DNA of 52,334 nt from positions 1 to 52,334 of the forward strand of contig JAJZPO010000008.1 of assembly GCA_021811155.1 (NCBI GenBank). The letters run 5' to 3'. The notes under the pieces are model-generated. The model was given only the letters and a program-made list of their open reading frames with translations, had not been told where the DNA came from and searched no databases. Of the stretch, positions 11,499 to 31,999 are shown piece after piece (position 1 is the stretch's first letter; every line of letters starts with the position of its first letter). Source of the stretch: Bacillota bacterium (GTDB lineage Bacteria; Bacillota; Desulfitobacteriia; Desulfitobacteriales; JAJXUE01). Both the position numbers and the translations under genes were made by a program.

Positions 11499-12995
11499 GT
11501 GAAAAAGATCAGTCTGATCCTGGCTCTGGCGTTAGTATTAGTAGTGGCTTTTGCAGCAAGCGCTTACGCTGACTATACTAACTTCTACGGTGGTTACAAT
11601 GTCTCCGCCAACGGCGTAACAACCGGCCAATCCACCAACTGGGGCGGCGGCGCCAGTTCGATTCAAAACAGGAGCGCGTTGAATATCAACCCCACTACCG
11701 GCGGATGGGGCCAAACAACGAATCCCACTGCGGTTTACCTGCCTGGCAATCCTTCCCAGCAGCCTGTTCACAGCGACTACCAAGCCAACACCGATGCCTG
11801 CGCGGCCTGCCACGCAGTCCACACCGGCAACGGCGACGCCCTGACCCAGTGGAACACCGCGGGACTTGCGGGTATCACCAATGTCTGTATGGCCTGCCAC
11901 GACGGTACGGTTACCAAAACCTACAACGTCATTGCCGGTACTTTCGCCGCGTCTGACACCGGCGCAACCGAACCAAACAACGGCGGCCTGTTCGCTGTAG
12001 TCTATGAGGGCAACACCAACAGCGCTTCTGAACACAACGTGTTTGCCGGTTTGCTCACCAGCGCAGCCTATGGCGGAGCAAACCCGAACGACATCGTTCA
12101 AACCAATGTGACAACCACTACGGATACAGCCGGAAACACCACTGCGGTTGCCGACAGCCACGGCAACTGGGATATCGACTTCGATTGCACGGCTTGCCAT
12201 ACCCCGCACGGCCAAGGCGGCAATGCCCGGATCCTGAATCCGAACCCCAACTATGTGATGACCAACGGCCAGGCGCCTGCAAAAGGCACCACAACCACTA
12301 CGGAAACAGCCGCACTTTCGGCTGCTGCATCCTATGCGCTGAGCGGCAGACCTATTTTGGGATATCCCTATGGCTTTACCGTAAAAGTTGGAACTACCTC
12401 TCTGGCCGAGTATCAGGATTACACCATATCTCTCGATCCGACTTCGGGCAACGCCGTTATCAACTTTAAGAACCCTCAGACAGGTGCCCTCACAGTCAGC
12501 TATACCGCAGCCTTGGCTGTACGGATGAATGTGGCCAACAAGCTGACATCAGCGGAAGCGGTCACATATGAATCCGGTATCAACAAGTTCTGCGGCGCCT
12601 GCCATACAGACTACAATACTGAAAACGTTACCGATCCCGCCGGCACCCTAAACGGTACTTACAGCAGCCATACCCGCCACCTTGTAGGCATGACCGCCTC
12701 CTCTTCCGCACGACAAGCCAGAGGCCTCAAGTTCCAGTATCCGGTTGGCTCGTCCAACCCGGCTGCAGCCAGCGGCGGCCAGGTTACCTGTCTGACCTGC
12801 CACTACGCTCATGGCACTGACCAAAGCAGGTGGCAAGCCACAGCAAACTCTTCGGGCATCAGCGCCTACAATTCATCTGAGCTGGCCGGTTCCTCCCGCC
12901 TGAAACGACTCCCGAACATGGGCGTTTGTGAAGCTTGCCATGAAAAAGGCACCGGCGCCTTCAGCGGCGGCTTCAACGGTCAAACCGCATTCTAG
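11499..12995 (+). CDS. Module 1: secreted OmcS-like hexaheme c-type cytochrome
   Basis: GTG start after GGAGGG; signal peptide VKKISLILALALVLVVAFAASAYA; six CxxCH (CAACHAVH, CMACHDG, CTACHTPHG, CGACHTDYN, CLTCHYAHG, CEACHEKG). An upstream in-frame ATG is at 11451. Confidence 0.9.
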   Translation: MKKISLILALALVLVVAFAASAYADYTNFYGGYNVSANGVTTGQSTNWGGGASSIQNRSALNINPTTGGWGQTTNPTAVYLPGNPSQQPVHSDYQANTDACAACHAVHTGNGDALTQWNTAGLAGITNVCMACHDGTVTKTYNVIAGTFAASDTGATEPNNGGLFAVVYEGNTNSASEHNVFAGLLTSAAYGGANPNDIVQTNVTTTTDTAGNTTAVADSHGNWDIDFDCTACHTPHGQGGNARILNPNPNYVMTNGQAPAKGTTTTTETAALSAAASYALSGRPILGYPYGFTVKVGTTSLAEYQDYTISLDPTSGNAVINFKNPQTGALTVSYTAALAVRMNVANKLTSAEAVTYESGINKFCGACHTDYNTENVTDPAGTLNGTYSSHTRHLVGMTASSSARQARGLKFQYPVGSSNPAAASGGQVTCLTCHYAHGTDQSRWQATANSSGISAYNSSELAGSSRLKRLPNMGVCEACHEKGTGAFSGGFNGQTAF

Positions 12996-13136
12996 GCTCG
13001 TTTTCTTCGGGTTTCAACATTGCACAACTTTCTATGCTTCTTTTGGCGCTCCAACTTAGTGTTGCGGCGCCTTTTTTACACCTAAAACAAAAGCTCAAAG
13101 CGACTCGACACAAACCGACAAATAATGAGCTTTATA

Positions 13137-13163
13137 TGTCGAATAGAAGTATAATATGTCGGA
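13137..13163. promoter_or_regulatory. Putative promoter/TGTCGAA-box region upstream of cytochrome module 2
   Basis: TGTCGAATAGAAGTATAATATGTCGG; paralogous to 8290-8316 and contains a TATAAT. Confidence 0.45.
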
Positions 13164-13386
13164 ATTTGTTGGGAAAATTGCAAAGGAATTACAGGGGTTA
13201 AGGCGAAATATTAAGTATCGAAATAGAGTGAATCAACGAAGTTCACACAGATAGAAAAAGAATTGTAGAAAGTTGTGCAAAATGGTGCAATGGAAATCAC
13301 TCCTAATCCCTTACTGGGCGACAGAAGGTGAGTGGATGTCGAAAATTCTACAGGGCCGCTCGGGCGATATGCAGAGGGTGATTTAA

Positions 13387-14499
13387 TTGCTGGCGAGGTT
13401 GAAAGCAAGCCTGAAAACAACGGAAGGCAAGTTGAAAGCATTCATTGTTCTTTCAGGTTCTGCAATTATGTTCTTGGCGCTGACCATCGGAATTCTGCAG
13501 CTGACCAACACGCCGCTCTTTTGCTCCAGCTGCCATGAGATGAGGCCTGAGTACTACACCTGGAAAGGGTCGGCTCATAGTCAGGTTGCTTGTGTAGAAT
13601 GTCACATACAACCCGGAGCCGAGAACCTGGTAAAGCACAAAATCGAGTCCTTAAGTCAACTTTATCTGCATTTTACCGGCGCCTATGTCACGCCGATTGC
13701 GGTCAAGGAGCCGGTCCCCAACTCAGTGTGTGAAGGCTGTCATGACATGGCAAAAAGGGTTACCACTCCTTCGCAAGATATCAAGTTTCCTCACACAACT
13801 CACCTGGATAAAAAGGTTCAGTGCGTAACCTGTCACGCAGGGGTGGTGCACGGCAGCATTGAGGAAAAGGGTTTCACCGCCATGACGGATTACAGTAAGT
13901 GGAATGCTCCGGTTGGCGCTGCTTATGTATCCGGCCCGGCCTCCAAGTATTTTACCAAACTGCAGATGAACGATTGCGTTGAGTGCCATAAAGAGAATGG
14001 AGCGCCCACAAGTTGTGATACCTGCCATACGAAGAGGGTTAAACCTCAGTCGCACCTGGCTCCAACCTGGCTTACTCAGCACGGCCCTCAGGCAGAGAAG
14101 GACATCAAGTCCTGTAATGAGTGCCATTCTGTTACGTTGAAATACGGCGCAATTCCTACCGACAATTTTTCCGCCAAAGATTACGCCAGGGCAAACACCT
14201 TCTGTAACAGCTGCCACGCCAATAAGCCGGCCGGACATACCGCGGACTGGCGGGCAATCCACCCTGGGCCGGCCAAGGCTGACCGCAACGGCTGCCTTAC
14301 CTGCCACGACGAAAACCCGCCGCGCAGCGGCAGCGCCGCTCCGGCCAGGACATTCTGCGGCAGATGTCACGTTGAAAAGCATTCACCCCCGAAGTTTCAT
14401 CCCGTCCCCGTTCCGCCCGCGGGCTACCAGCGGAGTTTGTGCGGCGCCTGCCACAACAGCAATGTCTGTGAAAACTGTCACGCGAGCACAGCCACATAG
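13387..14499 (+). CDS. Module 2: membrane-anchored NapC/NrfH-like 12-CxxCH cytochrome
   Basis: Close paralog of 8421-9527; probable TTG start; twelve CxxCH counted. Confidence 0.92.
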   Translation: MLARLKASLKTTEGKLKAFIVLSGSAIMFLALTIGILQLTNTPLFCSSCHEMRPEYYTWKGSAHSQVACVECHIQPGAENLVKHKIESLSQLYLHFTGAYVTPIAVKEPVPNSVCEGCHDMAKRVTTPSQDIKFPHTTHLDKKVQCVTCHAGVVHGSIEEKGFTAMTDYSKWNAPVGAAYVSGPASKYFTKLQMNDCVECHKENGAPTSCDTCHTKRVKPQSHLAPTWLTQHGPQAEKDIKSCNECHSVTLKYGAIPTDNFSAKDYARANTFCNSCHANKPAGHTADWRAIHPGPAKADRNGCLTCHDENPPRSGSAAPARTFCGRCHVEKHSPPKFHPVPVPPAGYQRSLCGACHNSNVCENCHASTAT

Positions 14500-14526
14500 G
14501 CTCTTTACAAGGTGAGGAGGATACAC

Positions 14527-15228
14527 ATGACAGATCTGACCATACCGGCCTCAGCGCCGCAAAATACGCCCGGCTCGCCGGGACCAAAAAATACAGGCAC
14601 TGTAAGCCTGCAAAAAGGCATCGGCGTTCTCTTGCTGGTAACCGTCCTGTTTACCGCAATTGGACTGGGGATCGGGCACTTCTTCTTCTGGAACAGGTAT
14701 GACAAAGGCACACTCTTGGACCACGAATTTGCGGACAACCTGGCCAAGGTCAAGGCAGATCCCAACAATCCGCTTAACCATGTGCAGTTGGGCTGGGACT
14801 ATTTCCTCATGAACAAAAATGAGAACGCCGTGGGAGAGTTTAAAAAAGCGCTGTCCCTCGACCCCAAAAACTATGCGGCGCACTATGACCTGGGCCTTTC
14901 CTATATGAGCCTGAAGCGCTACGACCAGGCGGCGGAAAGTCTGAAGAACGCGATCCAGATCGTACCCAACGCCTTCGATCCGCACCTCAACCTGGCTATA
15001 AGCTACTTCTACATCGCCAAATACGACGACGCTTTAAAGGAGTTGTCCCTGGCTTACAAAGCTAATCCAGGCTCGCCGGAAACCATGTACTGGCGCGGCA
15101 TGGTGTACGAAAAGCAGGGCAAGTACCAGGATGCCCTGCAGGAATACCAGACTGCGGTTAATTTCGAACCCAATTATGCCGATGCCAGGGAGGCCTACGC
15201 ACGCGTAGCCAAACAGGTCAAGAAATAA
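14527..15228 (+). CDS. Module 2: membrane-anchored TPR protein
   Basis: MTDLTIPASAPQ...; close paralog of 9568-10263; RBS gtgaggagg. Confidence 0.92.
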   Translation: MTDLTIPASAPQNTPGSPGPKNTGTVSLQKGIGVLLLVTVLFTAIGLGIGHFFFWNRYDKGTLLDHEFADNLAKVKADPNNPLNHVQLGWDYFLMNKNENAVGEFKKALSLDPKNYAAHYDLGLSYMSLKRYDQAAESLKNAIQIVPNAFDPHLNLAISYFYIAKYDDALKELSLAYKANPGSPETMYWRGMVYEKQGKYQDALQEYQTAVNFEPNYADAREAYARVAKQVKK

Positions 15229-15280
15229 GCAACGAAAGTGGGTGAACGGCCCTGCTCAAGGGTCAGGGCCGGATTAAAGT

Positions 15281-16300
15281 ATGGCGAGTGTTGAGAACGC
15301 TGCAAGACCGAAGCGGCAGATAAAAGTAAGGGACCTGAAGCAGGTGATGCTGGTCATTCCGCTCATCTTAACCGCGGTATTCGCTTATTCTTACTGGACA
15401 GGCCAGAACCCGTGGAACAAGGTGAGAGGGGTCCTGGGCCCTGCCACTACGCCCAGCCCGGTTTTTGGGATTTACGGTTCTGGGAACATGGGCCCGCTGA
15501 AACAGCCCATGGCTGTAGCGGAAGTGAACCGCAAGGTATTTGTGTCGGATACCGGGAACCACAGGATAGCTGTTTTTGATTATGACGGCAACCCTCTCTA
15601 TACCTTCGGCGCTCAGGGGAGCAGCCAGGGACAGTTCAGCTTTCCCTATGGCATCACGGTGGACGGTTCAGGCCAAATCTATGTGGCTGACCTCAACAAC
15701 GGCAACATTCAGGTCTTCAGCCAGAACGGCAAGTTCCTGAAGTACTTCCTCGACCCTAAGACCAACCTGGTGAAGCAGCCCGCCGGGCTCTTCTATGACC
15801 AAAGCAGCAACAGCATCTTTGTCACCGATGTGGCGCTCAGCCAGGTCCTGCAGTTTGACATAAACGGCAAGAAACTGCTTGAGGCGGGTAAAAGGGGGAG
15901 CGGCATGGGAGAATTGCTCTCGCCCAACGCTGTGTGTGCAGCCGGAGACAATATCATCGTCTCCGACACCGGCAACGATAGGGTGGAGGTGTTCGACCGG
16001 AGCGGCAAGTGCTTGGGTATAAACCTGGGGGACCAGCAAAACCTGGGCCCGGCCAAATCAGCCTTTGTCAATACCAGGGGGGTAGCGGTGGACGGCCGCG
16101 GCACATTGTTTGTGGTCAGCAACCTGACCAACAAGGTCTTCGCCTTTGACAAAGAGGGCCACAAGCCTTATCCGCCTTTCGGCTCCCTGGGCCAGGGCAA
16201 CGACCAGTTCAGCCTCCCCAACGGGATATTCATCGACGGCCAGTCAAGGCTCTACATCGCCGATAGCATGAACCAGCGCGTCATGGTTTACCAGGACTAG
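15281..16300 (+). CDS. Module 2: membrane-anchored NHL-repeat protein
   Basis: 339 aa, same length as and strongly similar to 10321-11340. Confidence 0.93.
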   Translation: MASVENAARPKRQIKVRDLKQVMLVIPLILTAVFAYSYWTGQNPWNKVRGVLGPATTPSPVFGIYGSGNMGPLKQPMAVAEVNRKVFVSDTGNHRIAVFDYDGNPLYTFGAQGSSQGQFSFPYGITVDGSGQIYVADLNNGNIQVFSQNGKFLKYFLDPKTNLVKQPAGLFYDQSSNSIFVTDVALSQVLQFDINGKKLLEAGKRGSGMGELLSPNAVCAAGDNIIVSDTGNDRVEVFDRSGKCLGINLGDQQNLGPAKSAFVNTRGVAVDGRGTLFVVSNLTNKVFAFDKEGHKPYPPFGSLGQGNDQFSLPNGIFIDGQSRLYIADSMNQRVMVYQD

Positions 16301-16343
16301 CGCTCCGAGCATATCCAGGGTAAGAGCGGGGAAACCGCTTGCC

Positions 16344-16403
16344 ATATTAGCAGATTCCGTCTCAGAAAGGGGGTGTGCAAGATGAGACGACCCAGGCTAA
16401 TAT
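16344..16403 (+). promoter_or_regulatory. Conserved leader hairpin enclosing an RBS/ATG upstream of the hexaheme gene (copy 2)
   Basis: ATATTAGC (16344) with GCTAATAT (16396) and GTCTC (16359) with GAGAC (16384), same layout as copy 1. Confidence 0.55.
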
Positions 16404-16429
16404 TTGACCAGAACAATGGAGGGAAAAAA

Positions 16430-17941
16430 GTGAAAAAGATCAGCCTTATCCTGGCCCTGACGTTGGTGTTGGTAGCGGCTTTCGCGGCAAGTGCTTACGC
16501 TGACTACACTAACTTCAATACCACTTACAATGTCACCACAACCGGTACGGTTAAGGGTGCCACCACCAACTGGGCAGACGGAACCAGCACCATTGGAGGA
16601 AATTCCGGCGGCCTTACTACCAGGGGTACGATAGGTATCAACCCAATTGACGGTACATGGGGTTCCACTTCGAACCATCAGATTTACCTGCCCGGCAATC
16701 CGTCTGTGGTGCCGATCCACGACAGCTACACAGCCAACACCGACGCCTGCGCCGCCTGCCACGCTGTCCACACCGGCAACGGCGACTCCCTGACCCAATG
16801 GAACACTTTCTCCGGCACAGCAGGAATTACCAATGTCTGCATGGCCTGCCATGACGGCACGGTCACCAAAACCTACAACGTAATCGCGGGAACATATGTT
16901 TCCACTGACGGAGGCACTGTCAAAAAGAACAACGGCGGTCTGTTCGCCACGGCCTATGATGCCCCCGCAGACACCAATGCTTCTGCGCATAACGTGTTCG
17001 GCGGCATGCTGACCAGCGCGGCTTTTGGCGGTTCAAACCCCGGCGACATCGTGAGCGACCATACGGGCGCCGGAACTGCTGACAGCCATGGCAAATGGAC
17101 TGTTGCCTTCGACTGCGCCGCCTGCCATACCCCGCACGGCCAGGGCGGCAATGCCCGCATCCTGGACCCGAACCCGAACTTCGTCCAAACAGCGGGCACT
17201 GACCCTTCCGCCGCAGGCGGCAACTATACAACGACCAGTGAAACAGCTTCTCTTTCCACAACTACCACCTATAGCCTGACCAAGGGAGTGCCCATCCTGG
17301 GGTGGCCGTACGGCTTCGTCGTTACGGTGAACAGTACTACAGTACAATCTGCAGATTATTATGTAAGCCTTAACAGGACAAACGGCAGCGCGACTGTTAC
17401 CTTTAAAAATGCCCAAACCGGCTCTCTTCAGGTCTCTTACACGCCTGCGCTGCAGGTGCGGATGAACATCGCCACCCCACTCACCAGCGGTGAAACTGTG
17501 ACCTATCAATCCGGCATGAACCAGTTCTGCGGCGCCTGCCACACAGACTATAACACCAGCGCTATAGTTGCCGGAGGCGGAAATCCCGCCGCGAGCCTGA
17601 ACGGCGTTTACAGCAGCCACACCCGCCACGCCGTAGGCTATGACTTCAGTTATGGCGGCAAGTCTGAACCTGTCACACAGGAAAAGCGCGGCCTGCGCTT
17701 CGAGTATCCGGGAGGCGTAAAGGACAGCGGTGCTGCTAACATCACCTGCCTGACCTGCCACTATGCCCACGGCGTGGACAAGAGCAGGTGGATTGATACC
17801 GCCGGCACTTCAGGTATCGCAGCCTATAACTCTGACGAGGTGGCCGGTTCTTCCCGTCTGAAAATCCTGCCGAACATGGGTGTCTGCGAGGCATGCCATG
17901 AAAAAGGCACAGGAGCTTTCAGCGGTGACTTCAAATTCTAA
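16430..17941 (+). CDS. Module 2: secreted OmcS-like hexaheme c-type cytochrome
   Basis: GTG start; VKKISLILALTLVLVAAFAASAYA signal peptide; six CxxCH in the same order as 11499-12995. Confidence 0.9.
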   Translation: MKKISLILALTLVLVAAFAASAYADYTNFNTTYNVTTTGTVKGATTNWADGTSTIGGNSGGLTTRGTIGINPIDGTWGSTSNHQIYLPGNPSVVPIHDSYTANTDACAACHAVHTGNGDSLTQWNTFSGTAGITNVCMACHDGTVTKTYNVIAGTYVSTDGGTVKKNNGGLFATAYDAPADTNASAHNVFGGMLTSAAFGGSNPGDIVSDHTGAGTADSHGKWTVAFDCAACHTPHGQGGNARILDPNPNFVQTAGTDPSAAGGNYTTTSETASLSTTTTYSLTKGVPILGWPYGFVVTVNSTTVQSADYYVSLNRTNGSATVTFKNAQTGSLQVSYTPALQVRMNIATPLTSGETVTYQSGMNQFCGACHTDYNTSAIVAGGGNPAASLNGVYSSHTRHAVGYDFSYGGKSEPVTQEKRGLRFEYPGGVKDSGAANITCLTCHYAHGVDKSRWIDTAGTSGIAAYNSDEVAGSSRLKILPNMGVCEACHEKGTGAFSGDFKF

Positions 17942-18030
17942 TCTGACAGCTTCATTTTCGCGCAAGCCGGTCCAGCGGGCCGGCTTTGCTCGTCTCTCGG
18001 GAAATGCCCTTTTGGGTCGCCAAGCAGAAT

Positions 18031-18060
18031 AGGACAGCGGGGACGGTTCTTAACGTCCTA
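18031..18060. repeat. REP-like imperfect palindrome
   Basis: AGGACAGCGGGGACGGTTCTTAACGTCCTA. Confidence 0.6.
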
Positions 18061-18333: not shown

Positions 18334-20694
18334 GTGAAAGTACCCGCCAAATTGGGTTTAATCTTGGTCCTTTCTTTATTTCTGGTAGCCATTTTTGTCT
18401 CTGTCAGCTTGGCCCTCGATGCCCAAGCCCCTACTGTCACGTCTTTTAGCCCGGGAGATAGGGCGGTTGTGGGCGCTGCCAACTTTATCATCTCATGTAC
18501 AGTAAATGATGCAGATGACAACATTAAAGACACCGGCTACTTCATTAAGCTTGACGGAACCGCCCTCACGGCCAACTTTGCCTATAAAGGACATTGGGTC
18601 AATGGCTGGGACGATGAGTATTGGGTTGTTGACAGCTACCGCGAAGCTACTGTCAGCGCCGCAATCACCGGAGCAAAAGACGGCGCCCATTCTGTCGAAG
18701 TGCAGACTATGGACGTTTCCGGCAACACGCTGAATCAAGCCTGGGGCTTTACGGTCAGCCAACCCCCGGTGTTTTCGGGTTTAGAACCGCCGGACGGGAG
18801 CATTGTTACCGGGATCCCTACTGTCAAAGCAGTGATAACCGATCAAAACGGCAGCGTAAATCCTAACAGTGTTGCTTTAAAAGTTGACGGCGCTAAGGTT
18901 ACGCCGGATTTAAGCGAATCCAATGGCAAAGTAAGCCTGAGCTACAGCTCGGGCAGTTTAGCCGACGACTCTTATCACAATGCAGCCCTTGAGGCGGCGG
19001 ATGCCGCCGGTAACACCGCTTCAACCGCCTGGAGATTTTTTGCTTGTGCCAACGGCGGGCAGACCGGCTTCAGTCGCCAGACCCCGGCAGACCGGTCCGA
19101 TGTTGCCAGCGATAGCCCCTCCATTTCAGTCCACTTGACAGACCTTAACATGGCCTATGATACCGCAAATATCAGCTTGACAATTGACAGCGGGACTCCG
19201 GTGAAACCAACAGTTACCGGCAAGGACACAGAGTTCTTGCTGGCCTACACTCCCCCGGCCCTAAAAGACGGCGCCCGTACAATTACGGTAAGCGTTCCCA
19301 GCTTAACCCCGGGTGCGACGCCCCTTACTACAACCTGGACTTTCAATGTCAAAGCCCCTCCGGTGATTACCAAACCTTCACCGACCTGCACTGTAAGCAG
19401 CGGCGCCCCGTCACTTGCGGCTTATGCCAAGGACAACTCAGGTTTAGCCAGCGCCAAATTTACAGTTGACGGCCAGGTTTTAAGCGGTGCAATTGACACC
19501 AGGTTTAACCGGGTTTCGGTCCAGGTACCCTCTGCCTTGGCCGAGGGGCAGCACGCTGTGTCGCTCTCGGTTTTGGATACTTCAGGCAACGAGGCAACCG
19601 CACAGTGGCAGTTCAACGTCGATACCAATATCGGCCCAACCCACCCCGATATGACCGCAGCCACCAATGCCAGCTGCTGGCAGTGTCACCAGACTGAATA
19701 TAACTTCGGCCACGTGCCCCCGGCCCAATGCTTAAGCTGCCATACCGGCAAGCTTACCCAGCTTGCTGAATTCCGGGACTGCACCGGCTGCCACTATGAC
19801 AATACCTACCGCACCGGCAGGCACGCCTATGACCAGACCTGGGTATGGGATAACCTTCCCAACCGCAGGCACTCGGTTAATGATATCCATCTTTCCGCTT
19901 CCCTTGATTACACGGAATGCCACTCCCGGATCCTGACCACAGAACACGGACGCACAGACAGGCTGGACAAAAACGGCAATCCTATCAACTGTGACACCTG
20001 CCATACCAACGCCTATCTGTCTACTGTCAGCCCGGATGAAGCCGGCAAGGTCAAAAACGCCGTTGCTCAGGGGTTAACCGGCTGCAATTCTTGCCATGAG
20101 CAGGCGGGGCACGCTGAACTCCACAATAGCGGCTTGGAAACCAAATGTGCAAGTTGCCATAACGGCAATCTCCAGGATGAGCATCTCAATAATGCGACTA
20201 CAAGCGGCAAAAGCTATACCTGCAATACCTGTCATGCCAGCAGCCGCAATGAGTTAGTCAGGGCCATCCGCAACAATCAACTGGGCTGCAGCAGCTGTCA
20301 CACCACCGCCCACGCTGTGCCCCTAAGTGTAAGCGTTCCTGCCGATGTGCCCTTATACCCGGGCTTCACCTTCAGCAAACCGGTTGATGCTGCTATCTTT
20401 GCCGGCGATCCGGGCTTGCCGGCGGGATACGAAACCAATTACAAGTCCGGCCTGGTTGTAATCTCCGGCAGAATGGAGGTCATGGTAAGCGAAGTGTGGA
20501 ATTTCTATCACACTCAGCTTACCGGTCAAGGCTGGGTTCTGAAGTCGCCGCCGCCGGCCGCGGCTGCTGCCTACTTCAGCGCCGAATTTGAAAAGCACGG
20601 ACGCCTGCTGACTGTAAGATGCTTCAAAACGGCCTTCGGCGACAACAGCGGACCTGTGGCTGCAAACTATCGCGTGGATATCTGGTATAAGTAG
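18334..20694 (+). CDS. Secreted multidomain protein: Ig-like repeats, ~8-heme CxxCH region and C-terminal soluble domain
   Basis: Signal peptide MKVPAKLGLILVLSLFLVAIFVSVSLA; repeated DxxGN...W.F Ig-like strands; eight CxxCH from CWQCH to CSSCH plus one YTECH. Confidence 0.87.
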   Translation: MKVPAKLGLILVLSLFLVAIFVSVSLALDAQAPTVTSFSPGDRAVVGAANFIISCTVNDADDNIKDTGYFIKLDGTALTANFAYKGHWVNGWDDEYWVVDSYREATVSAAITGAKDGAHSVEVQTMDVSGNTLNQAWGFTVSQPPVFSGLEPPDGSIVTGIPTVKAVITDQNGSVNPNSVALKVDGAKVTPDLSESNGKVSLSYSSGSLADDSYHNAALEAADAAGNTASTAWRFFACANGGQTGFSRQTPADRSDVASDSPSISVHLTDLNMAYDTANISLTIDSGTPVKPTVTGKDTEFLLAYTPPALKDGARTITVSVPSLTPGATPLTTTWTFNVKAPPVITKPSPTCTVSSGAPSLAAYAKDNSGLASAKFTVDGQVLSGAIDTRFNRVSVQVPSALAEGQHAVSLSVLDTSGNEATAQWQFNVDTNIGPTHPDMTAATNASCWQCHQTEYNFGHVPPAQCLSCHTGKLTQLAEFRDCTGCHYDNTYRTGRHAYDQTWVWDNLPNRRHSVNDIHLSASLDYTECHSRILTTEHGRTDRLDKNGNPINCDTCHTNAYLSTVSPDEAGKVKNAVAQGLTGCNSCHEQAGHAELHNSGLETKCASCHNGNLQDEHLNNATTSGKSYTCNTCHASSRNELVRAIRNNQLGCSSCHTTAHAVPLSVSVPADVPLYPGFTFSKPVDAAIFAGDPGLPAGYETNYKSGLVVISGRMEVMVSEVWNFYHTQLTGQGWVLKSPPPAAAAAYFSAEFEKHGRLLTVRCFKTAFGDNSGPVAANYRVDIWYK

Positions 20695-22598: not shown

Positions 22599-23621
22599 TT
22601 AATTCTCCCAGACCGAAACTTTGCTGTTTCCCTGGTCTGTAATGTAGATGCGGCCCTGGTCGTCGACAAATAGGCCGTTGGGAAGGTAAAACTGCGCGTC
22701 ATCCGCGCCCTGGGCCCCGAAAGACCATAAGTAGTTCCCGCTGCTCGAAAACCCGTTAACGTAGTTTCCCAGCATGGAAACCCCGTAGATGACACCCCTG
22801 CCGTCGACGCCTACCCCGCGGGAGGTTAAAGTCCGGGGATTCCTGCCGCCGCTGGAGCCGTCCATCTGATACTGAAACTGGCCGGTAAGGGAATAAACTT
22901 GAATATTCTCATTCTGGCTGTCCGAGACAATGATGGCGCTGCCGGTAGCGGTTACGCCGTTGGGGGCAGCAAGCTGGCCCGGTCCACTTCCCTGTTTGCC
23001 AAATTCCAGCAGCTTTTTGCCGCTGGTAGTATTGAAGACCTTGACCGAGGCGGGTGCCAGTTCCGCCACATAAAGCTTGCCGTCCCGGAAGTAAATTCCT
23101 GTAGGCGAATTGATAACGCCTTGGTCCGGTTTGTCCTCGCCAAAGTACTTGACGAATTCCCCCTGGGGGTTGAAAACCTGGATATTTCCGGCCCGCATGT
23201 CTGTCACATAGATATTGTTAGCGGAGTCAACGGCGATGCCGTAAGGAAAGAGGAACTGCCCCTTCCCCGTTCCCTGCTTGCCAAAAGACGAAACAAACTT
23301 GCCGCGGGAATCGAAGACTTCAATCCTCTGGTTCCCGGTATCGCTGATATAGATTCTGCCGTTAGCCGCAGTTACGCCCATGGGCTTTTTGAGCTGCCCC
23401 TGGGAACCTTCGCCGTATATGGAAAAAACAAAAGCAGGGGGGGAGGGATCTCCTAAAGCAAATTTGGAGTTTTTGAGCGGCCTGACAATGTTGTACCCGG
23501 TAAAGTAGGAATAGGCGAACAAGCCGAATACAAGCAGGACAAGAATAATTACCAATATGCGAAAGGTCCGTTTGGATATGCCTTTAGGCGGGGTGTTGGA
23601 AATATTTGTCGATGCGGTCAT
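22599..23621 (-). CDS. Module 3: membrane-anchored NHL-repeat protein
   Basis: N-terminal TM FRILVIILVLLVFGLFAYSYFTG; NHL blades (YISDTGNQRIEVFDSRGKFVSSFG). Confidence 0.93.
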   Translation of the reverse strand: MTASTNISNTPPKGISKRTFRILVIILVLLVFGLFAYSYFTGYNIVRPLKNSKFALGDPSPPAFVFSIYGEGSQGQLKKPMGVTAANGRIYISDTGNQRIEVFDSRGKFVSSFGKQGTGKGQFLFPYGIAVDSANNIYVTDMRAGNIQVFNPQGEFVKYFGEDKPDQGVINSPTGIYFRDGKLYVAELAPASVKVFNTTSGKKLLEFGKQGSGPGQLAAPNGVTATGSAIIVSDSQNENIQVYSLTGQFQYQMDGSSGGRNPRTLTSRGVGVDGRGVIYGVSMLGNYVNGFSSSGNYLWSFGAQGADDAQFYLPNGLFVDDQGRIYITDQGNSKVSVWEN

Positions 23622-23652
23622 TTAAGCCGGCTGGGCCGGATTCACCTCCCAA

Positions 23653-24348
23653 TTATTTTTTCTGGGCCTTCAGGCGATCTATGGCATCTTTGGCTTTTTG
23701 GAAGCTTGGCAGGACATCATAAGCTTGCTGGTAGTCCTTCAGAGCTTCTTCTGTATTGCCCAGCTTCTCCTGCAGCGTGCCCAGGGTATAGAGTACCTCC
23801 ACATCGCCGGGGTTGGCTTTATAAGCCAGTTCCAGTTCCTGAATAGCCTTGTCGCAGGCATTCTGGGACTTATATACCATGCCCAGGCCAAGATGGGCGC
23901 TGCCGGCCTTGGGGGCTATTTCTATAGCCTTTTGAAACTCTTGCACCGCGCGGTCTTTTTTGTCCGTAATATCGTAGGCCAGCGCCAGGTTATAGTGGGC
24001 CTGGTAGTTCTTGTCGTCCAGGGCCAGGGCTTTTTTGTAATTGCTGATAGCAGCATCGTATTCCCCTTTTTGGAAATAGACATAGCCGAGCTGGATAAAA
24101 TTTCCCGGATTGTTGGGGTCGCTTTCGATCCGGCTGGAGTATATGGCTGCCATCTGGTCCAGCTTGGGAGCGGCATCAACCTTCCAGAATTTGTACTTGC
24201 CGAGGGCGTAGCCCCCGCTGCCCAGCAATACTAAGAGCGCAAGCAGGATTAATAAAGCCTTGGTGTAGGAAATATTATCATTACCCGCCTGCGGGGGTAA
24301 ATTGGGCTGCAGCGGCGCTTGACCGTTGCTGACATCGACGTTGCTCAT
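23653..24348 (-). CDS. Module 3: membrane-anchored TPR protein
   Basis: MSNVDVSNGQAPLQPNLPP..., TM ALLILLALLVLLGSGGYALGKYKFW, TPRs (YDAAISNYKKALALDDKNYQAHYNLALAY). Confidence 0.92.
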   Translation of the reverse strand: MSNVDVSNGQAPLQPNLPPQAGNDNISYTKALLILLALLVLLGSGGYALGKYKFWKVDAAPKLDQMAAIYSSRIESDPNNPGNFIQLGYVYFQKGEYDAAISNYKKALALDDKNYQAHYNLALAYDITDKKDRAVQEFQKAIEIAPKAGSAHLGLGMVYKSQNACDKAIQELELAYKANPGDVEVLYTLGTLQEKLGNTEEALKDYQQAYDVLPSFQKAKDAIDRLKAQKK

Positions 24349-24367
24349 GCTGTAAATTTCTCCTTTC

Positions 24368-25666
24368 TTAACCCGTTTCAACAGGGGGAGGGTTGTAATT
24401 CCCTGTGGAAGAAGAGCCGCTTCCTCCGGCTGGGGAACCATTACCGTAACCCGGCGATTCCGGGGTAATACTGGCCCCGGGTGACAGGGGCTTGCGGAAC
24501 TCAGGCTTGGCCAGATCAGCTTTGGAGTCCGGGACGTAGTGGCAGCGCTGGCATTTTTGCGCGCTGTGGCAGTTGAAACAAGGAGCTCTGGTCAGCTCGG
24601 TCTGAGCGTTGACCGGGGGACCGTGAATGTGTTTGCCCCGGACAATTACATCATAATGAATGTTTGTCTCGTGGCACCGGTAGCAGTAAGTCTTCGTGGC
24701 GGCGCTGCCGCTGGTGGGCATTCCTTCGTCATGACAGACAAGACAACCCGTTCTGTCAGCGGTGGCCTGGACAATGTGGGTGCGCTTCCAGGAAACCGTA
24801 TGGCTTGGCGGCGGCGTTTTCTTAGTCGAGTGGCATGCGGCGCAAAAAGTGTTCTGCCGGGCATATTTGACAACCGGATCGTCAACAGGGATCCTTGGTT
24901 CAGTTATCGACATTGTTTTTTGATGGCACTTGTCGCACTGTTTAATGTCTGCCTCAGCCATCAACCCGTGCTGCCTGTCGAACATCGGATTTTTATGGCT
25001 TTCAGGTTTCACCAGTTTTGTGTGGCAGGCGCTGCAGTCCTTCAGCTGCGGCCCCGCGTCCTCCTCTTTATGGCAATTAAGACATTCCTCCATGGAGAAC
25101 TTGAGAAAGTCCTGCCGCATATAGGCCTTGCCCACAGGCTCAATCCACTTGTCCCAATTGCCGTCAGCCGTGAAACCCTCTTCACCGATCCGGGCATGGG
25201 CTACGGCTTCATGACATTTTACACAAGGCACCTTGTTGTCCTTGTGCACCTTGTGCGGTATCTTGATATCCCCGCTGGGAGTTACGACCCGGTTCGAAGT
25301 GTGACAGCGTTCACAAACCTCATCCTTTATTGGCACGTCCATGGTAATTGGCGTATACACGCGACCGGTTAAGTGGTCGTACAGCTCTTTGATGGATTCC
25401 ACCTTGTGGACCAGGAATTTGTCCGTTCCCGGCTCGATGTGACAGTCGATGCAATTAATCTGGCTGTGGGCGCTGGCCTTCCAGGTCACGTATTCGGGCA
25501 TCATCTCATGACAGGACCGGCAGAATTGAGGGGTGCTGGTCAGTTGCAGCGCTGTGGCGGTAACAATCAACAGCAGCAGCAGGGTGCCGGACGCAAAGAT
25601 TACTGCCTTTAATTTTCCTTCCTTAGTTGACAGGTCGGGAATAAACTTTTTGAAGAGTTTTGGCAA
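24368..25666 (-). CDS. Module 3: membrane-anchored NapC/NrfH-like 12-CxxCH cytochrome
   Basis: Probable TTG start after gaaggtg; FCRSCHEMMPEYVTWKASAHSQINCIDCHIEPG; twelve CxxCH counted. Confidence 0.91.
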   Translation of the reverse strand: MPKLFKKFIPDLSTKEGKLKAVIFASGTLLLLLIVTATALQLTSTPQFCRSCHEMMPEYVTWKASAHSQINCIDCHIEPGTDKFLVHKVESIKELYDHLTGRVYTPITMDVPIKDEVCERCHTSNRVVTPSGDIKIPHKVHKDNKVPCVKCHEAVAHARIGEEGFTADGNWDKWIEPVGKAYMRQDFLKFSMEECLNCHKEEDAGPQLKDCSACHTKLVKPESHKNPMFDRQHGLMAEADIKQCDKCHQKTMSITEPRIPVDDPVVKYARQNTFCAACHSTKKTPPPSHTVSWKRTHIVQATADRTGCLVCHDEGMPTSGSAATKTYCYRCHETNIHYDVIVRGKHIHGPPVNAQTELTRAPCFNCHSAQKCQRCHYVPDSKADLAKPEFRKPLSPGASITPESPGYGNGSPAGGSGSSSTGNYNPPPVETG

Positions 25667-26312
25667 TTTATCACCTTCTGTCAGCTGCGCGGCAATGGTT
25701 CCGGCTGCCGCAAAGAAACGATTGTTCCAATTTGCACAAAGCCTGCTAAGCCAAGGATTGCCGGAACGCGGCAAACTGCCGAATGCGGACCAGCCGAAAT
25801 TTCAGTATAATGGGTTTCCGGTCGCGAAAGTGAAAATATCCTCACTTAAGTGGAAAATCAGACCAGGGTCAAGAGTTATGCGTCAGGGTAAACTGTCAGG
25901 TCCCGTTTGTTTCCCCTAAGAGTTTCTAGGATGATGTTGTAATTCCTGCCAGAACCTGGGAACAAATTCGGACAAAAGACTCTATGTACCGGCAACAAAG
26001 ACTATATTTCGGTGACAGTTGAGGAGACTATTGGCGAGATGGGTAAATTCTTTCCCAATAAAGTCGAAAGGTTTTGAGTAGGTTTACCTCAAGGGACAGT
26101 CAATGATATCCAAAATATATGCCTGTACCTGCCAGGACATACCGCGGTAAACTCAAAATCCGCCGATGACAGGGGATCTGTCAAATTTGATAAATCAAGG
26201 GTGTATTGTTTTAAAGTTTGCCTAAATATCACTCAAAGGTTAAACTAAGATTAAAGAAGTCTGTATATAATCCAATCGTAGCTGTGAATAACCGCGTTTT
26301 CCGGAGGTATCT

Positions 26313-27701
26313 GTGCAAACCAAACCACACCGCAGCCTGCGGCGAGATTGGGAAGTGTATGTGCGCAACGGACTTGTGTACGCCGGCGCAACGCTGATTA
26401 TCCTGGTGGTAAACCTTGGCAGCGGCCTTGTCTGGGAAAGACTGACGGACACAAACATACCTTACCGGGCCTATTGGCTGCTGCTGGTCCTCGCTGTTTT
26501 TTCCGCCATGCTCTATTACCCGCTTGCGCTTGGACTCGCCTCTGTTTTCCGGCGCATACTGCCTTCTTTCCGGGAGAGGACGCTGGAGGCCTTAAAGAGC
26601 TTTTCCGGCAGTCTGTCCGAAGTGCAGCTGGGGGAAAACCTGGCCGCACGGGTGGTGGAAACGCTGGTGGAGAATTTGTACCTGTCCGGCGGGGCGTTGG
26701 TGCGATGTGGAGCTGAGCGGGATGAGGTCTTATATTCGGTAGGATTTTCGGGCACAGACACTGCCTCTGCCATCAACGCCTGGAAGAGTTGTGCTGTAAA
26801 AAAGGAAATAATGCGCTTGGCAGGGTGGATGTTCCTGCCCCTTTCCTGGCAGACCGAAACGGTGGGGGTAATCATCCTGCGCGCAAGGGAAACGCGTTCC
26901 CTGCGCCGGCAGGAAATTGAGATTATAGACAGCCTTGCCTCCCAGGCCGCAGTGGCTATCCGCAACAGGGAACTGTACGAGGATTTGCTGCGGGCCAATG
27001 CTTTGACCACCCGGGCGGAAAGACTGGCCTCTTTAGGGGTTCTCACGGCAGGCATTGCGCACGAAATCCGCAACGGCCTGCATGGACTGCAGGGGTTTGC
27101 GGACCTGTTGGAAGAGGGGACCAGGGACCGGGAAGACCTGAACCGCCTGGCGAAAGGCATTATCTCAGACGCCGACCGGCTTTCCCGCATGTTGAATAAT
27201 TTCCTGCTTTTTGCCCGTAAACCCGAACTTAATCCGGAGCAAGTGAATCTCAAGGAAATTCTCACCACCTCAGCAGGGATTGTCCAGCGCTTGCCCCAGG
27301 CCAAAGGGATTGCAGTTGAGTTTGAATTTGCGGCAGGGGAGAGGATATTTTGGGGGGACAAGGACAAACTTTATCAGGTTTTTCTTAATCTGCTGATAAA
27401 CGCCGCAGAGGCGGCAGGGACCACCAGGATCAGGGTGCAGCTAAAGTTTTTGCCGCATGGGGCGGAAGTTATGATTGCTGATAATGGGGAAGGTATTGCT
27501 GTCAAGGACAGGGAGAGGGTTTTTGATCCCTTTTTCACCAGCAAACCTGCCGGAACAGGCCTCGGATTGTCCATAGTCCACCAGATAGTGCAGGAACATG
27601 GCGGCTATGTGGATTTTGCAGACGGCGCTGAGGGAACAAGCGTAACAGTTCATTTGCCGGACAGAAAGGAGAATGCCAGTGAGGGTGGTAATCGCGGATG
27701 A
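26313..27701 (+). CDS. Membrane sensor histidine kinase with GAF-like region
   Basis: Two N-terminal TMs; H-box AHEIRNGLHGLQGFADLLEEG; NLLINAAEA (N box), DNGEGI, FFTSKPAGTGLGLSIVHQI. Confidence 0.93.
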   Translation: MQTKPHRSLRRDWEVYVRNGLVYAGATLIILVVNLGSGLVWERLTDTNIPYRAYWLLLVLAVFSAMLYYPLALGLASVFRRILPSFRERTLEALKSFSGSLSEVQLGENLAARVVETLVENLYLSGGALVRCGAERDEVLYSVGFSGTDTASAINAWKSCAVKKEIMRLAGWMFLPLSWQTETVGVIILRARETRSLRRQEIEIIDSLASQAAVAIRNRELYEDLLRANALTTRAERLASLGVLTAGIAHEIRNGLHGLQGFADLLEEGTRDREDLNRLAKGIISDADRLSRMLNNFLLFARKPELNPEQVNLKEILTTSAGIVQRLPQAKGIAVEFEFAAGERIFWGDKDKLYQVFLNLLINAAEAAGTTRIRVQLKFLPHGAEVMIADNGEGIAVKDRERVFDPFFTSKPAGTGLGLSIVHQIVQEHGGYVDFADGAEGTSVTVHLPDRKENASEGGNRG

Positions 27702-28419
27702 TGAGCCCAGGGCCAGGGAGTTCTTACAGCTGGTATTGGAGAAAATCCCCGGGGTGGAGGTAGTGGGGCAGGCCGGGAACGGCAGCCAGGCGGTGCAGCT
27801 GGCCCGTGACCTGGCGCCGGACTTAATGTTTTTGGACATCCGGATGCCTGAGCTTGACGGATTGGCTGCGGCGCGGGAGCTGGCGCAGCTTTCTGCGCCG
27901 CCCCGGGTAGTGTTTGTGACCGCCTACGACCAGTATGCATTAGAAGCTTTTAAAGTCCAGGCCCTGGACTATCTGGTAAAACCTTTTAAGGCCGAAGCTG
28001 TGAGGGAAACAATTGAACGTTTCAGACAGGAAGCATCGCGCGGCAACGGCGTGGACATGGAGAGAGTGCTGAGCATCCTGAAGCGGGGAAGACACGCTAA
28101 AATTCCCCTGCCGGTGGAAGGGGGCAACACAATTTTGCTGGACCCCCGGGACATCCACTATATTGAACGCAGAGGACTGGATGTCGTGGTTAAGACGGCC
28201 AAAAAGGTTTACACCACCAACATTAATCTGAAGGACTTTGAACAGAGACTGGACCCCCTGGACTTTTTCCGCTGCCACAAAGGCTATATCGTCAGATTGG
28301 AATTAATAGAGGAAGTTATTCATTCGGGCAGGACTTTCGAACTTCTGCTGAGTACCGGGGACAGGATTCTTTTGAGCCGGGAAAAGGAAAAACAGCTCCG
28401 CAGGTTATACAGCTTTTAG
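27673..28419 (+). CDS. LytTR-family response regulator
   Basis: Receiver VVIADDEPRAREFLQLVLE...LMFLDIRMPELDG; C-terminal LytTR (IHYIERRGLDVVVKT...FFRCHKGYIVRLELIEEV); overlaps the kinase end. Confidence 0.93.
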   Translation: MPVRVVIADDEPRAREFLQLVLEKIPGVEVVGQAGNGSQAVQLARDLAPDLMFLDIRMPELDGLAAARELAQLSAPPRVVFVTAYDQYALEAFKVQALDYLVKPFKAEAVRETIERFRQEASRGNGVDMERVLSILKRGRHAKIPLPVEGGNTILLDPRDIHYIERRGLDVVVKTAKKVYTTNINLKDFEQRLDPLDFFRCHKGYIVRLELIEEVIHSGRTFELLLSTGDRILLSREKEKQLRRLYSF

Positions 28420-28472
28420 GACGTAAGGGCAAGAATCTTGAAGCTCTCCATTTCAATGGAGAGTAGTTCACA

Positions 28473-28507
28473 GGCTGGTGACAATTCGCTTGTCACCAGC
28501 CTTTTTC
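28473..28507 (+). terminator. Rho-independent terminator
   Basis: GGCTGGTGACAATTCGCTTGTCACCAGCCTTTTT after the LytTR gene. Confidence 0.85.
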
Positions 28508-28510
28508 TTG

Positions 28511-28608
28511 TACCTCAGGAAAGTATATACTCGGCAACTTTTGCCGAGTATATCGAACACGGGCACTAAAACGCGCGCGCTGAGGAAAAACGAAGCGCGC
28601 GTTTCTTG
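28511..28608 (+). repeat. Modular hairpin repeat, medium copy C (lacks the central module)
   Basis: TACCTCAGGAAAGTATATACTCGGCAACTTTTGCCGAGTATATCGAACACGGGCACTAAAACGCGCGCGCTGAGGAAAAACGAAGCGCGCGTTTCTTG. Confidence 0.87.
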
Positions 28609-28804
28609 TGGGGGAGTCGGTTTATGGCAACTTTAGTCGAACGGGTAAATTTGTTGCACATACAGGCAGGATTGCTGCGCGAAGTGGTAGAATAGCTAAA
28701 TATCGTTCGGGCCTGCATGGCTTCGCTTTCGGTTCGCGCCGGCTAAGCCTCGCCCCGATAGTGAATAAATTTACAAATAATTAAACTAATTGCGGGTGAA
28801 AGCA

Positions 28805-29479
28805 GTGAGCAGTGAAATCAGTACAATTGACCCGGAAAAAAAGGGAGTCAGGGCAAAGGAGAAGGTAGTCAGCCCTCTGGCTGCGGCAACTGTCATAATA
28901 ATCACTGTGGCGGCGCTCCTGACCGCCGGGGCTTTTGTCGGGTACAAATTCTTTTGGAACATCTATGACAAGGACAGTAAGGTCGCGCATGACTTTAAGG
29001 CGGCCACGGCCAGGGTAAACGCGAACCCCAACGATCCCGGGTCCCGTCTGGCCCTGGGGTGGAGCTACGCGCAGCAGGGCGAGCTGGACAAAGCCATGGA
29101 ACAATACCAGGATGCCTTAGAACTGGAGCCGGATAACATTGTTGCCAGATACAACATCGCCCTGGTGAAGATTGCCCAAAAGGATTTGCAGGGGGCCAGA
29201 GCAGACCTGGAAGGGTTAAGAAAGGACACACCTGAGTATCTGGCGGCCCGCGCCACCCTGGGAAAAGTGTACCGGGAATTGGGCGACTGCCAGCTGTCTG
29301 CCCAGGAGTTGGAACTGGTTGCAAGCACGGACGGCGGCAATGCGGACATCCTGTTTGAACTGGGAAAGACCTATGAGAAGATGGGGGATAAGGCCAAGGC
29401 TAAAAGCGCATATCAAAAAGCTTTGAGCTTTGCCCCGGGCGATACGGGTATCCAGGCGGCTTTGGCGGCGCTGAACTGA
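28805..29479 (+). CDS. Module 4: membrane-anchored TPR protein
   Basis: N-terminal TM then TPRs (GELDKAMEQYQDALELEPDNIVARYNIALVKI); GTG start after gggtgaaa. Confidence 0.88.
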   Translation: MSSEISTIDPEKKGVRAKEKVVSPLAAATVIIITVAALLTAGAFVGYKFFWNIYDKDSKVAHDFKAATARVNANPNDPGSRLALGWSYAQQGELDKAMEQYQDALELEPDNIVARYNIALVKIAQKDLQGARADLEGLRKDTPEYLAARATLGKVYRELGDCQLSAQELELVASTDGGNADILFELGKTYEKMGDKAKAKSAYQKALSFAPGDTGIQAALAALN

Positions 29480-29566
29480 AAACCAGACCAGACAGAAGGG
29501 AGTGTGCGGCCCGGGTTTCTGCAAGCCTGCCGCCGGTACGGCATTACGGGGACCTGGCAAGGACTA

Positions 29567-30511
29567 ATGAAGCTTAAGAAGTTGGTAATGGTCGTTTTGC
29601 TGATTGTTTTAACCAGCCTGTTGGCGTTTGGCTACTTTTACTTCATCAGGCAGGATCCGCTGGAAACTGTAAAAGGCATTAACCCCGCGGTTAAGTTAAA
29701 TAAGCCGCCCAAGTTTCTTTACGCCATCAACAGCGAGCCCGCTCACCCCCTGGACAGACCGGCTGCTGTAATGGTGGTCAATCAAAGGATTTATGTCTCA
29801 GACGTCGGCAAAGGGCTGGTGGCGGTTTATGACTACAACGGCAAATTTGAGAGCTACCTGAGGCCGGGCACAAGAAATTTTGCCTCGCCCTACGGCCTGG
29901 CTTCGGATGGGAAAAACCTTTATGTAGCTGATCCCGGTCTGCACCAGATATTTGTGTTTGATGCAAACGGCAAATATCTCCGAACATTTGAACCGCAGGG
30001 AGTGCGGTTAGGGGCCCCGGGCGCCATGCTGTTTCATCAGGACAGGCTTTATGTCAGTGACCAGCCGGTTCACAAGGTGTATGCTTTTGCCCCCTCGGGC
30101 GCTTTGCTGCAGTCGTACGGCTCGCAGGGCCACGGGGAGGGGCAGCTCTACTTTCCCCATGGCATAGCAGTGGACGAAGGTGGCAAGGTTTATGTGGCTG
30201 ACTCAGGCAATGACCGGATCGAAGTCTATAATTCCGACGGTTCCAGCGCCGGAGCCATAGGAGGAGATCAGATGTCCACTCCCAGGGGGCTGTTTTGCGA
30301 CCGCAAGGGGAATTTTTGGCTAGTAGCCGGTATGGCTAACAGGGTTTTTGTGTACGGCAGCGACAGCAAGAAAGTACTGGAATTTGGGAACTACGGCCCG
30401 GATTATGGGCAGATTTCTCTGCCAAACGGGATTTTTCTGGACAAGTCCGGCCGGCTCTACATCACCGAAATGGGCAATTCCAGGGTTTCAGTCTTCAGTC
30501 TCAATGATTGA
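29567..30511 (+). CDS. Module 4: membrane-anchored NHL-repeat protein
   Basis: MKLKKLVMVVLLIVLTSLLAFGYFYF TM; NHL blades (YVADSGNDRIEVYNSDGSS). Confidence 0.92.
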   Translation: MKLKKLVMVVLLIVLTSLLAFGYFYFIRQDPLETVKGINPAVKLNKPPKFLYAINSEPAHPLDRPAAVMVVNQRIYVSDVGKGLVAVYDYNGKFESYLRPGTRNFASPYGLASDGKNLYVADPGLHQIFVFDANGKYLRTFEPQGVRLGAPGAMLFHQDRLYVSDQPVHKVYAFAPSGALLQSYGSQGHGEGQLYFPHGIAVDEGGKVYVADSGNDRIEVYNSDGSSAGAIGGDQMSTPRGLFCDRKGNFWLVAGMANRVFVYGSDSKKVLEFGNYGPDYGQISLPNGIFLDKSGRLYITEMGNSRVSVFSLND

Positions 30512-30556
30512 AGCGAGGGTTTTGTAAAGTTTGACCGTGAAAGGAGGTGAAAATGA

Positions 30557-31999
30557 TTGAATTCAGTTAGCGCGCAAAGCAAGAGGCACTCCGCTATGAG
30601 CAAGGTTTGGCTCATTGTTGGCAAGAGGCGCCCCTGTTTGAGGAGGGTTTGCCTTATGATTGGCTTAAGCGTCGCCTTGATGATGTTCCTTGGCAGCGCG
30701 GCCTTGGCTGCAACCAATAATCCCCACGGCAACTACACTGCAAACACCAATGCGTGCGCCATGTGCCACAAAACCCATACGGCTTCCTCCCCAAGGCTAT
30801 TGGGCTTTCAAGCGACATACGCCGGCAGCGAGTCATCACCGAATGAGACATACAAGATTTGCCTGTACTGTCATGGTACTGCAGCTTCCGGCAGTATCTA
30901 CAACATACAGGATGGCATAATTGAAGAGGGTACCAATGTCTGGGCGACGCCCGGAGGCGGCATGGAGAAGATGACCGGCATTGAAGGTCCAAATTCCCTG
31001 GTAAGTACGCCGCCCACGGCGACGGTGACTTCCAAGCACAAGGTTGCCGGCGCCACTGCAGACCAAAGCATCCCCGGGGCCGCCACTATGGGAACAGGCA
31101 TACTCTTTACCTGCAGCAGCTGCCACGACCCTCATGGAACATCCAACAGCAGGCAGTTAAGGGATACCATTACCGTGGTAGGAATAGGGGGCAGCGGGAC
31201 CAAGACTACCAGCGCCACCGGTGTCCAGGTGACTATCTCGAGTCAGGGAACCAATGAGGTTACAACATGGAATAGCGCCATCAACAATTTCTGCGGCGCC
31301 TGTCATGCTGACTACAATGCACAGACCGCCGGGAGCGGCAATACTCCCACCGACGCCGCCAATTATTACACCGCCGGAAAATACAGGCACCAGGTGGGGA
31401 TGGCCCCGAATGCTGGCATTAACAGCGCCAGGTTCAACTTAGATTACAATGCTCTGCCCCTGAGCAGCGACGGTAACTTGATAACCTGCATGACTTGTCA
31501 TATGGCCCATGGCACCACGGCCACAGTTACCAATTATGCTCCTCCCACGGGTGTTTCGCCGGCTACCCTCTTGCGCATGGATGAGCGGGGCGCATGCGAA
31601 AACTGCCACCGCAAAACCCCATCCACTACTGCAGCCACGGTTGCCGGGGTGAGTCTCAGCAGCGACAAGCTGTACCTGACTGTAACCTTCGACCAGTACA
31701 TGCTGGCCCAGCCTTCCGGCAGTCCTGTGCTTGGGAATTCAGCGCTCAATCTGGCCAATTACGCGCTGTATAATGGAAGCGGCACACTGATTCCTGCGGC
31801 CAACTGGCAGACTACCGGCACCACGCTGGCATCAATTCAGCCCTCCGGGGACAGGCTTGGCAAAGTCGTGACCATCGGACCGATTAAAACCAATCTGGGG
31901 ACTTCGGGAGCCAACTGGAAAGTGGTTGTTACCAATGTCAACGACTTAAACGCCAAACCGATGAGCACTACCGCCAACTTTGGAACCTTTTCCTATTAA
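30557..31999 (+). CDS. Module 4: secreted OmcS-like hexaheme c-type cytochrome with C-terminal beta-rich extension
   Basis: CAMCHKTH, CLYCHGT, CSSCHDPHG, CGACHADYN, CMTCHMAHG, CENCHRK then VAGVSLSSDKLYLTVTFDQYML...; start uncertain (TTG 30557 or ATG 30596). Confidence 0.87.
   Translation: MNSVSAQSKRHSAMSKVWLIVGKRRPCLRRVCLMIGLSVALMMFLGSAALAATNNPHGNYTANTNACAMCHKTHTASSPRLLGFQATYAGSESSPNETYKICLYCHGTAASGSIYNIQDGIIEEGTNVWATPGGGMEKMTGIEGPNSLVSTPPTATVTSKHKVAGATADQSIPGAATMGTGILFTCSSCHDPHGTSNSRQLRDTITVVGIGGSGTKTTSATGVQVTISSQGTNEVTTWNSAINNFCGACHADYNAQTAGSGNTPTDAANYYTAGKYRHQVGMAPNAGINSARFNLDYNALPLSSDGNLITCMTCHMAHGTTATVTNYAPPTGVSPATLLRMDERGACENCHRKTPSTTAATVAGVSLSSDKLYLTVTFDQYMLAQPSGSPVLGNSALNLANYALYNGSGTLIPAANWQTTGTTLASIQPSGDRLGKVVTIGPIKTNLGTSGANWKVVVTNVNDLNAKPMSTTANFGTFSY

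Follow-up and report, generated by a model that had tools for sequence, protein, structure and literature searches.

The window, that is, the whole stretch of DNA analysed here, is 52,334 nucleotides long and represents an entire contig of a Bacillota genome (3.22 Mb, 99.5% complete, 149 contigs). It encodes four OmcS-like hexahaem cytochromes, named paralogues A to D, each at the end of a repeated gene cassette. Paralogues A (11499..12995, plus strand, 498 amino acids), B (16430..17941, plus strand, 503 amino acids), and C (21005..22477, minus strand, 490 amino acids) start with GTG; paralogue D (30557..31999, plus strand, 480 amino acids) starts with TTG. Good ribosome-binding sites are located upstream of all four starts. 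The proteins share 31-65% pairwise identity. The original prediction, made from the sequence letters, had placed six CxxCH sites in one order in these proteins; the coordinates and the order were found to be correct, with exactly six sites in each protein, and the mature part of paralogue D contains 12 histidines. The accompanying list of six motifs holds literally for three of the proteins; paralogue D differs at haem 1 (CAMCHKTH) and at haem 2 (CLYCHGTA). An RHxVG motif follows haem 4 in all four proteins (TRHLVG, TRHAVG, YRHAVG, and YRHQVG), as had been claimed. They were also described as secreted, which agrees with the N-terminal hydrophobic stretch predicted in each of them, resembling a signal peptide.

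The cassette has the gene order 12-haem NapC/NrfH-type cytochrome, TPR protein, NHL propeller, and hexahaem cytochrome. The four copies extend over 8394-12995, 13387-17941, 25774-21005 (minus strand), and 28790-31999; the fourth has no 12-haem cytochrome. Cassette 1 (plus strand) contains a 12-haem cytochrome with a NapC/NirT (NrfH-like) N-terminus (8394..9527; Pfam Cytochrom_NNT, 4.5e-16; one N-terminal transmembrane segment), a TPR protein (9568..10263; Pfam TPR), and an NHL β-propeller (10321..11340; Pfam NHL), the latter two with an N-terminal transmembrane anchor. Cassette 2 (plus strand) contains a 12-haem NapC/NirT-type cytochrome (13387..14499; Pfam Cytochrom_NNT, 1.2e-15; NrfH-like in NCBIfam), a TPR protein (14512..15228), and an NHL β-propeller (15281..16300). 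The same genes in cassette 3 (minus strand) are the NHL β-propeller (22599..23621), the TPR protein (23653..24441), and the 12-haem NapC/NirT-type cytochrome (24368..25774); cassette 4 (plus strand) has the TPR protein (28790..29479) and the NHL β-propeller (29504..30511). These assignments are based on Pfam and transmembrane prediction. The 12-haem, TPR, and NHL proteins have one predicted N-terminal transmembrane segment each, and the hexahaem proteins have a signal-peptide-like start. This arrangement suggests that the three partners remain attached to the membrane, facing outward, and that the hexahaem protein is released. The 12-haem cytochromes share an N-terminal transmembrane segment and a haem domain with the NrfH/NapC quinol dehydrogenases, and NrfH is the best PDB match of their family profile (1.3e-11). 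However, they carry eight extra haems past the NrfH-like part.

Every gene family shows the same order of divergence among the copies: the closest pair is copies 1 and 2 (65-74%), followed by copy 3, and last by copy 4 where it is present. This shared order indicates that the entire cassette has been duplicated. Since whole cassettes, and not single subunits, were duplicated, the four copies more probably operate in parallel, serving different acceptors or potentials, than as parts of one hetero-filament. Across Bacillota loci, 21 sets of TPR, NHL, and hexahaem genes were found in that order, and 16 of the 21 have a 12-haem gene directly upstream. The distances between the families are correlated (Mantel r 0.67-0.90; none of 2000 permutations as high). 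Part of this correlation comes from shared species history; it is evidence of joint inheritance and not of contact. In the whole host genome, eight genes belong to the NHL family, four in the window, three on contig C51, and one on contig C8, and all eight adjoin a secreted multihaem gene. Given this association, the NHL protein is apparently a partner devoted to these cytochromes. On C51 (locus L059, C51:5000-24999), positions 6986-16734 hold two further TPR-NHL-hexahaem sets, as well as an NHL gene next to that of a 15-haem protein; on C8 (locus L060), the genes for an NHL protein and a 13-haem protein lie together at positions 3827-7497. The hexahaem family has a patchy distribution among Bacillota: 21 of 300 sampled genomes have a match at E ≤ 1e-20, and 8 of 61 closer ones, including that of the host, have a match at 1e-10. 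A search of plasmid and viral collections for relatives gave zero matches.

The relationship of the hexahaem proteins to OmcS was analysed by PDB searches. A single-sequence phmmer search gave no match, and a profile was required. The profile of the four paralogues gave OmcS (2.7e-6) as the sole credible match. A 36-sequence hexahaem family profile (A2, from which the residue numbers H91-H438 used below are taken) matched OmcS at 1.3e-15, with profile positions 77-419 on OmcS residues 8-406 of 407, including all six haems. In the rest of the PDB, all E values were at least 0.0026, with OmhA second (0.0026), and OmcE at 0.022. The claimed likeness to OmcS thus goes beyond motif order, as OmcS is the specific full-length best match, and the ligand histidines are conserved. 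OmcE and other tetrahaem filaments gave weak local matches only, which were not significant, and they have four haems compared with six here. On this search, the OmcE or OmcZ type was rejected. The OmcS motifs quoted in the original prediction (CEGCHTMH, CLNCHQH, CSSCHDPHG, EWCANCHTD..RHPAG, CLSCHRAH, and CNKCHAK) are in agreement with the PDB sequence.

Likeness among proteins with many haem sites might also arise by generic multihaem convergence, and the window proteins would then belong to another cytochrome family. This would agree with the failure of the single-sequence search, with the Pfam results for the hexahaem proteins, which are general doubled-CXXCH domains only, and with the AlphaFold and Foldseek analyses (see below), which gave no OmcS match. 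However, the profile search picks OmcS alone among the PDB multihaem proteins, over its full length. When OmcS was shuffled within segments, with the CxxCH sites and every histidine fixed, the highest score in 500 trials was 25.3 bits, compared with 59.7 bits for the real sequence. A control profile of the adjoining 12-haem family, which contains even more CxxCH sites, did not match OmcS. Convergence was rejected on these two controls, and is considered extremely improbable. The assignment of paralogues A to D to the OmcS family of hexahaem cytochromes is supported by these sequence comparisons.

Exactly 12 histidines are invariant in the 36 relatives of profile A2, namely those of the six CxxCH sites and H91, H108, H179, H237, H394, and H438. 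The six proximal histidines align with those of OmcS, and H108, H179, H237, and H438 align with OmcS H16, H110, H147, and H335. By position only, H91 may correspond to OmcS His2 (residue 2), and H394 to OmcS H257. In OmcS, all 12 axial ligands are histidines, and one of them, at haem 5 (haem 505), is supplied by the neighbouring molecule (PMC6584659). H108, which occupies the position of OmcS His16, is invariant in 36/36 relatives. We take His16, following the OmcS structure paper, to be the ligand donated by the neighbour. The window proteins thus resemble OmcS (Geobacter sulfurreducens; PDB 6EF8, 6NEF) in the order of the six haems, in full-length homology, and in the ligand histidines, including the His16 counterpart. 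There are also several differences. The hexahaem proteins are about 24% identical to OmcS over 298 aligned positions; they carry an insert between haems 3 and 4; their host is single-membrane; and the companion genes (NHL, TPR, and 12-haem) differ, as far as visible. Moreover, OmcS forms nanowire filaments, whereas for the window proteins filaments are putative.

The locus had been described as apparently Gram-positive, and the host genome agrees with this. No Omp85 outer-membrane protein was matched in it, whereas the same search was positive in seven control genomes, and two Spo0A genes were found. On these results, the host most likely belongs to the single-membrane Bacillota. Among named relatives, the closest is a Bacillota metagenome genome (locus L001) with 89% identity. 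A genome-wide search identified no SLH domains, and S-layer anchoring via such domains was therefore rejected.

A wire of this kind in a Gram-positive wall has been proposed before; the original prediction mentioned neither this precedent nor the four-gene cassette. In 2021, CwcA (Tfer_0075 / TherJR_1122) of Thermincola was proposed as a cell-wall hexahaem cytochrome, modelled on OmcS and stacking through the peptidoglycan; its locus tag and that of ImdcA (Tfer_0070), a membrane decahaem cytochrome, are five numbers apart (PMC7911101). The idea of OmcS-like wires in the Gram-positive wall is thus not new. By description, CwcA and the window proteins share the six haems, a Gram-positive host, OmcS as the closest solved structure, and a nearby gene for a membrane multihaem cytochrome. 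The features found here are of the CwcA type: a secreted OmcS-like hexahaem protein in a single-membrane host, linked to a 12-haem cytochrome in three of the four cassettes (16/21 overall). However, here there are four cassette copies on one contig and two more hexahaem proteins elsewhere in the genome; the cassette membrane cytochrome has 12 haems, compared with 10 in ImdcA; and the host genome has no clear relative of OcwA, the terminal reductase of Thermincola potens (PDB 6I5B). An extra NapC/NrfH-type membrane cytochrome with 10 haems, the haem number of ImdcA, is encoded upstream of cassette 1 (6568-7767).

OcwA relatives were found in fusion proteins of other lineages. Carboxydothermus islandicus and several further Bacillota encode proteins of about 640-908 residues whose N-terminal half is a profile-complete hexahaem module. 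In one fusion, the C-terminal half has OcwA as its best PDB match (4.3e-11), and a profile of seven gave 4.8e-34. The window proteins are unfused. That two modules which otherwise occur apart are naturally fused suggests that they act together. This supports the step from CwcA to OcwA that has been proposed in Thermincola (PMC7911101), and links the OmcS-like module to extracellular respiration. The fusion proteins lie at L005:9749-12472, L007:9704-12277, L012:9983-12649, and L018:2588-5146, and in others; those in L005, L007, and L012 occupy the same cassette position as the hexahaem gene. Candidates for an acceptor-facing protein in the host are an Ig-like 8-haem protein (18334-20694), and the 13-haem and 15-haem proteins elsewhere in the genome.

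The original prediction took the four proteins to be filament-forming, and the number of paralogues to suggest several wires or hetero-filaments. The OmcS homology and the invariance of H108 suggest that the hexahaem proteins might polymerise end to end, with H108 reaching into haem 5 of the next subunit. We consider such stacking moderately probable. Several points weigh against it. Paralogue D has about 125 residues beyond haem 6 (window 31616-31999) with no Pfam match, and this extension fits a plain homopolymer less easily. The fusions fit it less easily as well, and are a caution against assuming it for the entire family. The family insert between haems 3 and 4 is large and aligns poorly to OmcS. 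The AlphaFold models had low confidence, with a predicted local distance difference test (pLDDT) score of 60 for paralogue A (498 amino acids), and 55 for the haem core of paralogue D (304 amino acids), which is expectable as haems are not modelled. A Foldseek search with these two models did not return OmcS, and gave weak Ig-like or pilin-like sheet matches or nothing. The AlphaFold and Foldseek results were taken neither for nor against an OmcS fold. In Geobacter, only OmcS is known to polymerise, and not its paralogues OmcT, OmcJ, and GSU2501 (PMC12977616), so that homology to OmcS alone is no proof of a wire. Even for OmcS, the physiological role of the filaments in respiration is under dispute (PMC11077965).

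Some of these points would fit OmcS-family proteins that do not polymerise. Single hexahaem proteins in or on the wall might relay electrons, either by contact or by diffusing, from the membrane cytochrome to a reductase at the surface. That OmcS is the sole proven wire-former among four Geobacter homologues (PMC12977616), that many relatives have the module fused to an OcwA-like reductase, and that paralogue D has a C-terminal extension are all consistent with such a relay. However, the invariance of H108, the counterpart of OmcS His16, in all 36 relatives weighs against such a relay. Attempts to keep CwcA of Thermincola in solution failed, and its authors saw this as fitting a polymer; a wall 20-80 nm thick requires several stacked units (PMC7911101). 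A relay by single hexahaem proteins is therefore considered rather unlikely.

The insert and the extension have some features of their own. In paralogue A, residues ~250-345 (window ~12250-12530) form a predicted β-sheet insert between haems 3 and 4, with pLDDT mostly 80-97. It is aligned in paralogues B and C, and mostly absent from D. This β-sheet could decorate the surface of a filament. The tail of paralogue D (31616-31999) has the look of an Ig-type domain, by eye only.

Taken with the cassette, end-to-end stacking would give several paralogous, secreted, wall-crossing conduits, in which hexahaem proteins stack and work with membrane-anchored partners, mostly with their own quinol input, and pass electrons outward. 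We hold this reading to be reasonably probable. The bacterium probably passes respiratory electrons outward through its thick wall. Menaquinol would be oxidised by the membrane-anchored NrfH-like 12-haem cytochrome present in three of the four cassettes, a role suggested by its family. Electrons would then pass to the secreted hexahaem protein near the membrane; the cassette and the predicted anchors are observed, and contact between the partners is presumed. The membrane-anchored NHL propeller and TPR protein may hold, fold, or assemble the secreted hexahaem protein. The hexahaem proteins would stack end to end through the wall, with H108 acting like His16 of OmcS as a ligand to haem 5 in the adjacent subunit. 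Finally, a surface reductase or acceptor would receive the electrons, a step that the fusions in relatives support. We infer the electron direction, the roles of the partners, and the polymerisation.

The conduits might also run inward and bring in electrons from minerals, electrodes, or partner cells. No sequence feature fixes the direction, and multihaem chains are reversible in principle. However, all cassettes but one bring a NapC/NrfH-type quinol dehydrogenase, which is quinol-oxidising and passes electrons outward in known systems. In addition, the relatives include Carboxydothermus, a genus with Fe(III) reducers (PMC7829351). Inward transfer is thus regarded as very unlikely, and the outward direction was kept for the conduits.

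Other genes surround the cassettes. The Ig-like 8-haem cytochrome (18334..20694, plus strand; Pfam Big_13 and Cytochrome_C7) is a predicted secreted protein and a possible surface partner. It has several Ig-like domains followed by eight CxxCH sites, and no significant solved relative. In the interval between cassettes 3 and 4, a histidine kinase and a LytTR response regulator are encoded (26313..28419, plus strand; Pfam HisKA/HATPase and Response_reg/LytTR), and it is possible that this pair regulates the cassettes. After cassette 4, two proteins (32136-33795) have no significant Pfam match, and one of them has several predicted transmembrane segments. On either side of the cytochrome region, at 1624-5373 and 42181-46038, lie two sets of genes for molybdenum hydroxylase (FAD-binding and molybdopterin subunits).

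Some parallels, by description, exist in Geobacter. The omcS region seems to hold a β-propeller gene, GSU3586/KN400_2445, placed there by its KN400 number (PMC3495685), and likewise the cytochromes oscI and oscJ (PMC13194489). For the OmcS nanowire, secretion and folding are assigned to a companion operon, osc (GSU2500-GSU2493); the companions of the hexahaem genes here are NHL, TPR, and 12-haem genes. In the literature examined, which did not extend to key work on the osc machinery, no description was found of the conserved TPR-NHL-cytochrome cassette, its fourfold duplication, or the OcwA fusions, and any novelty is claimed only weakly. As a tentative generalisation, which we rate as possible, there might be a modular wire cassette in Bacillota: the 12-haem quinol dehydrogenase, the TPR protein, and the NHL protein would form a base and assembly unit for each OmcS-type polymer. 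Block duplication of this unit would give several different filaments per cell, and sister lineages would have fused the filament module to an OcwA-type reductase.

For the passage of electrons across the Gram-positive wall, the wire hypothesis in Thermincola has stayed a homology model, since soluble CwcA could not be purified. The conserved four-gene cassette with standalone OmcS-type proteins offers a defined and testable unit, with partners, a histidine, and several paralogues to compare. Through the natural OcwA-like fusions, genome evidence alone connects the proposed wire with a terminal reductase that is already known. Polymerisation of the hexahaem proteins, if it occurs, would widen the range of OmcS-type wires to single-membrane cells, where they might grow directly out of the cytoplasmic membrane.

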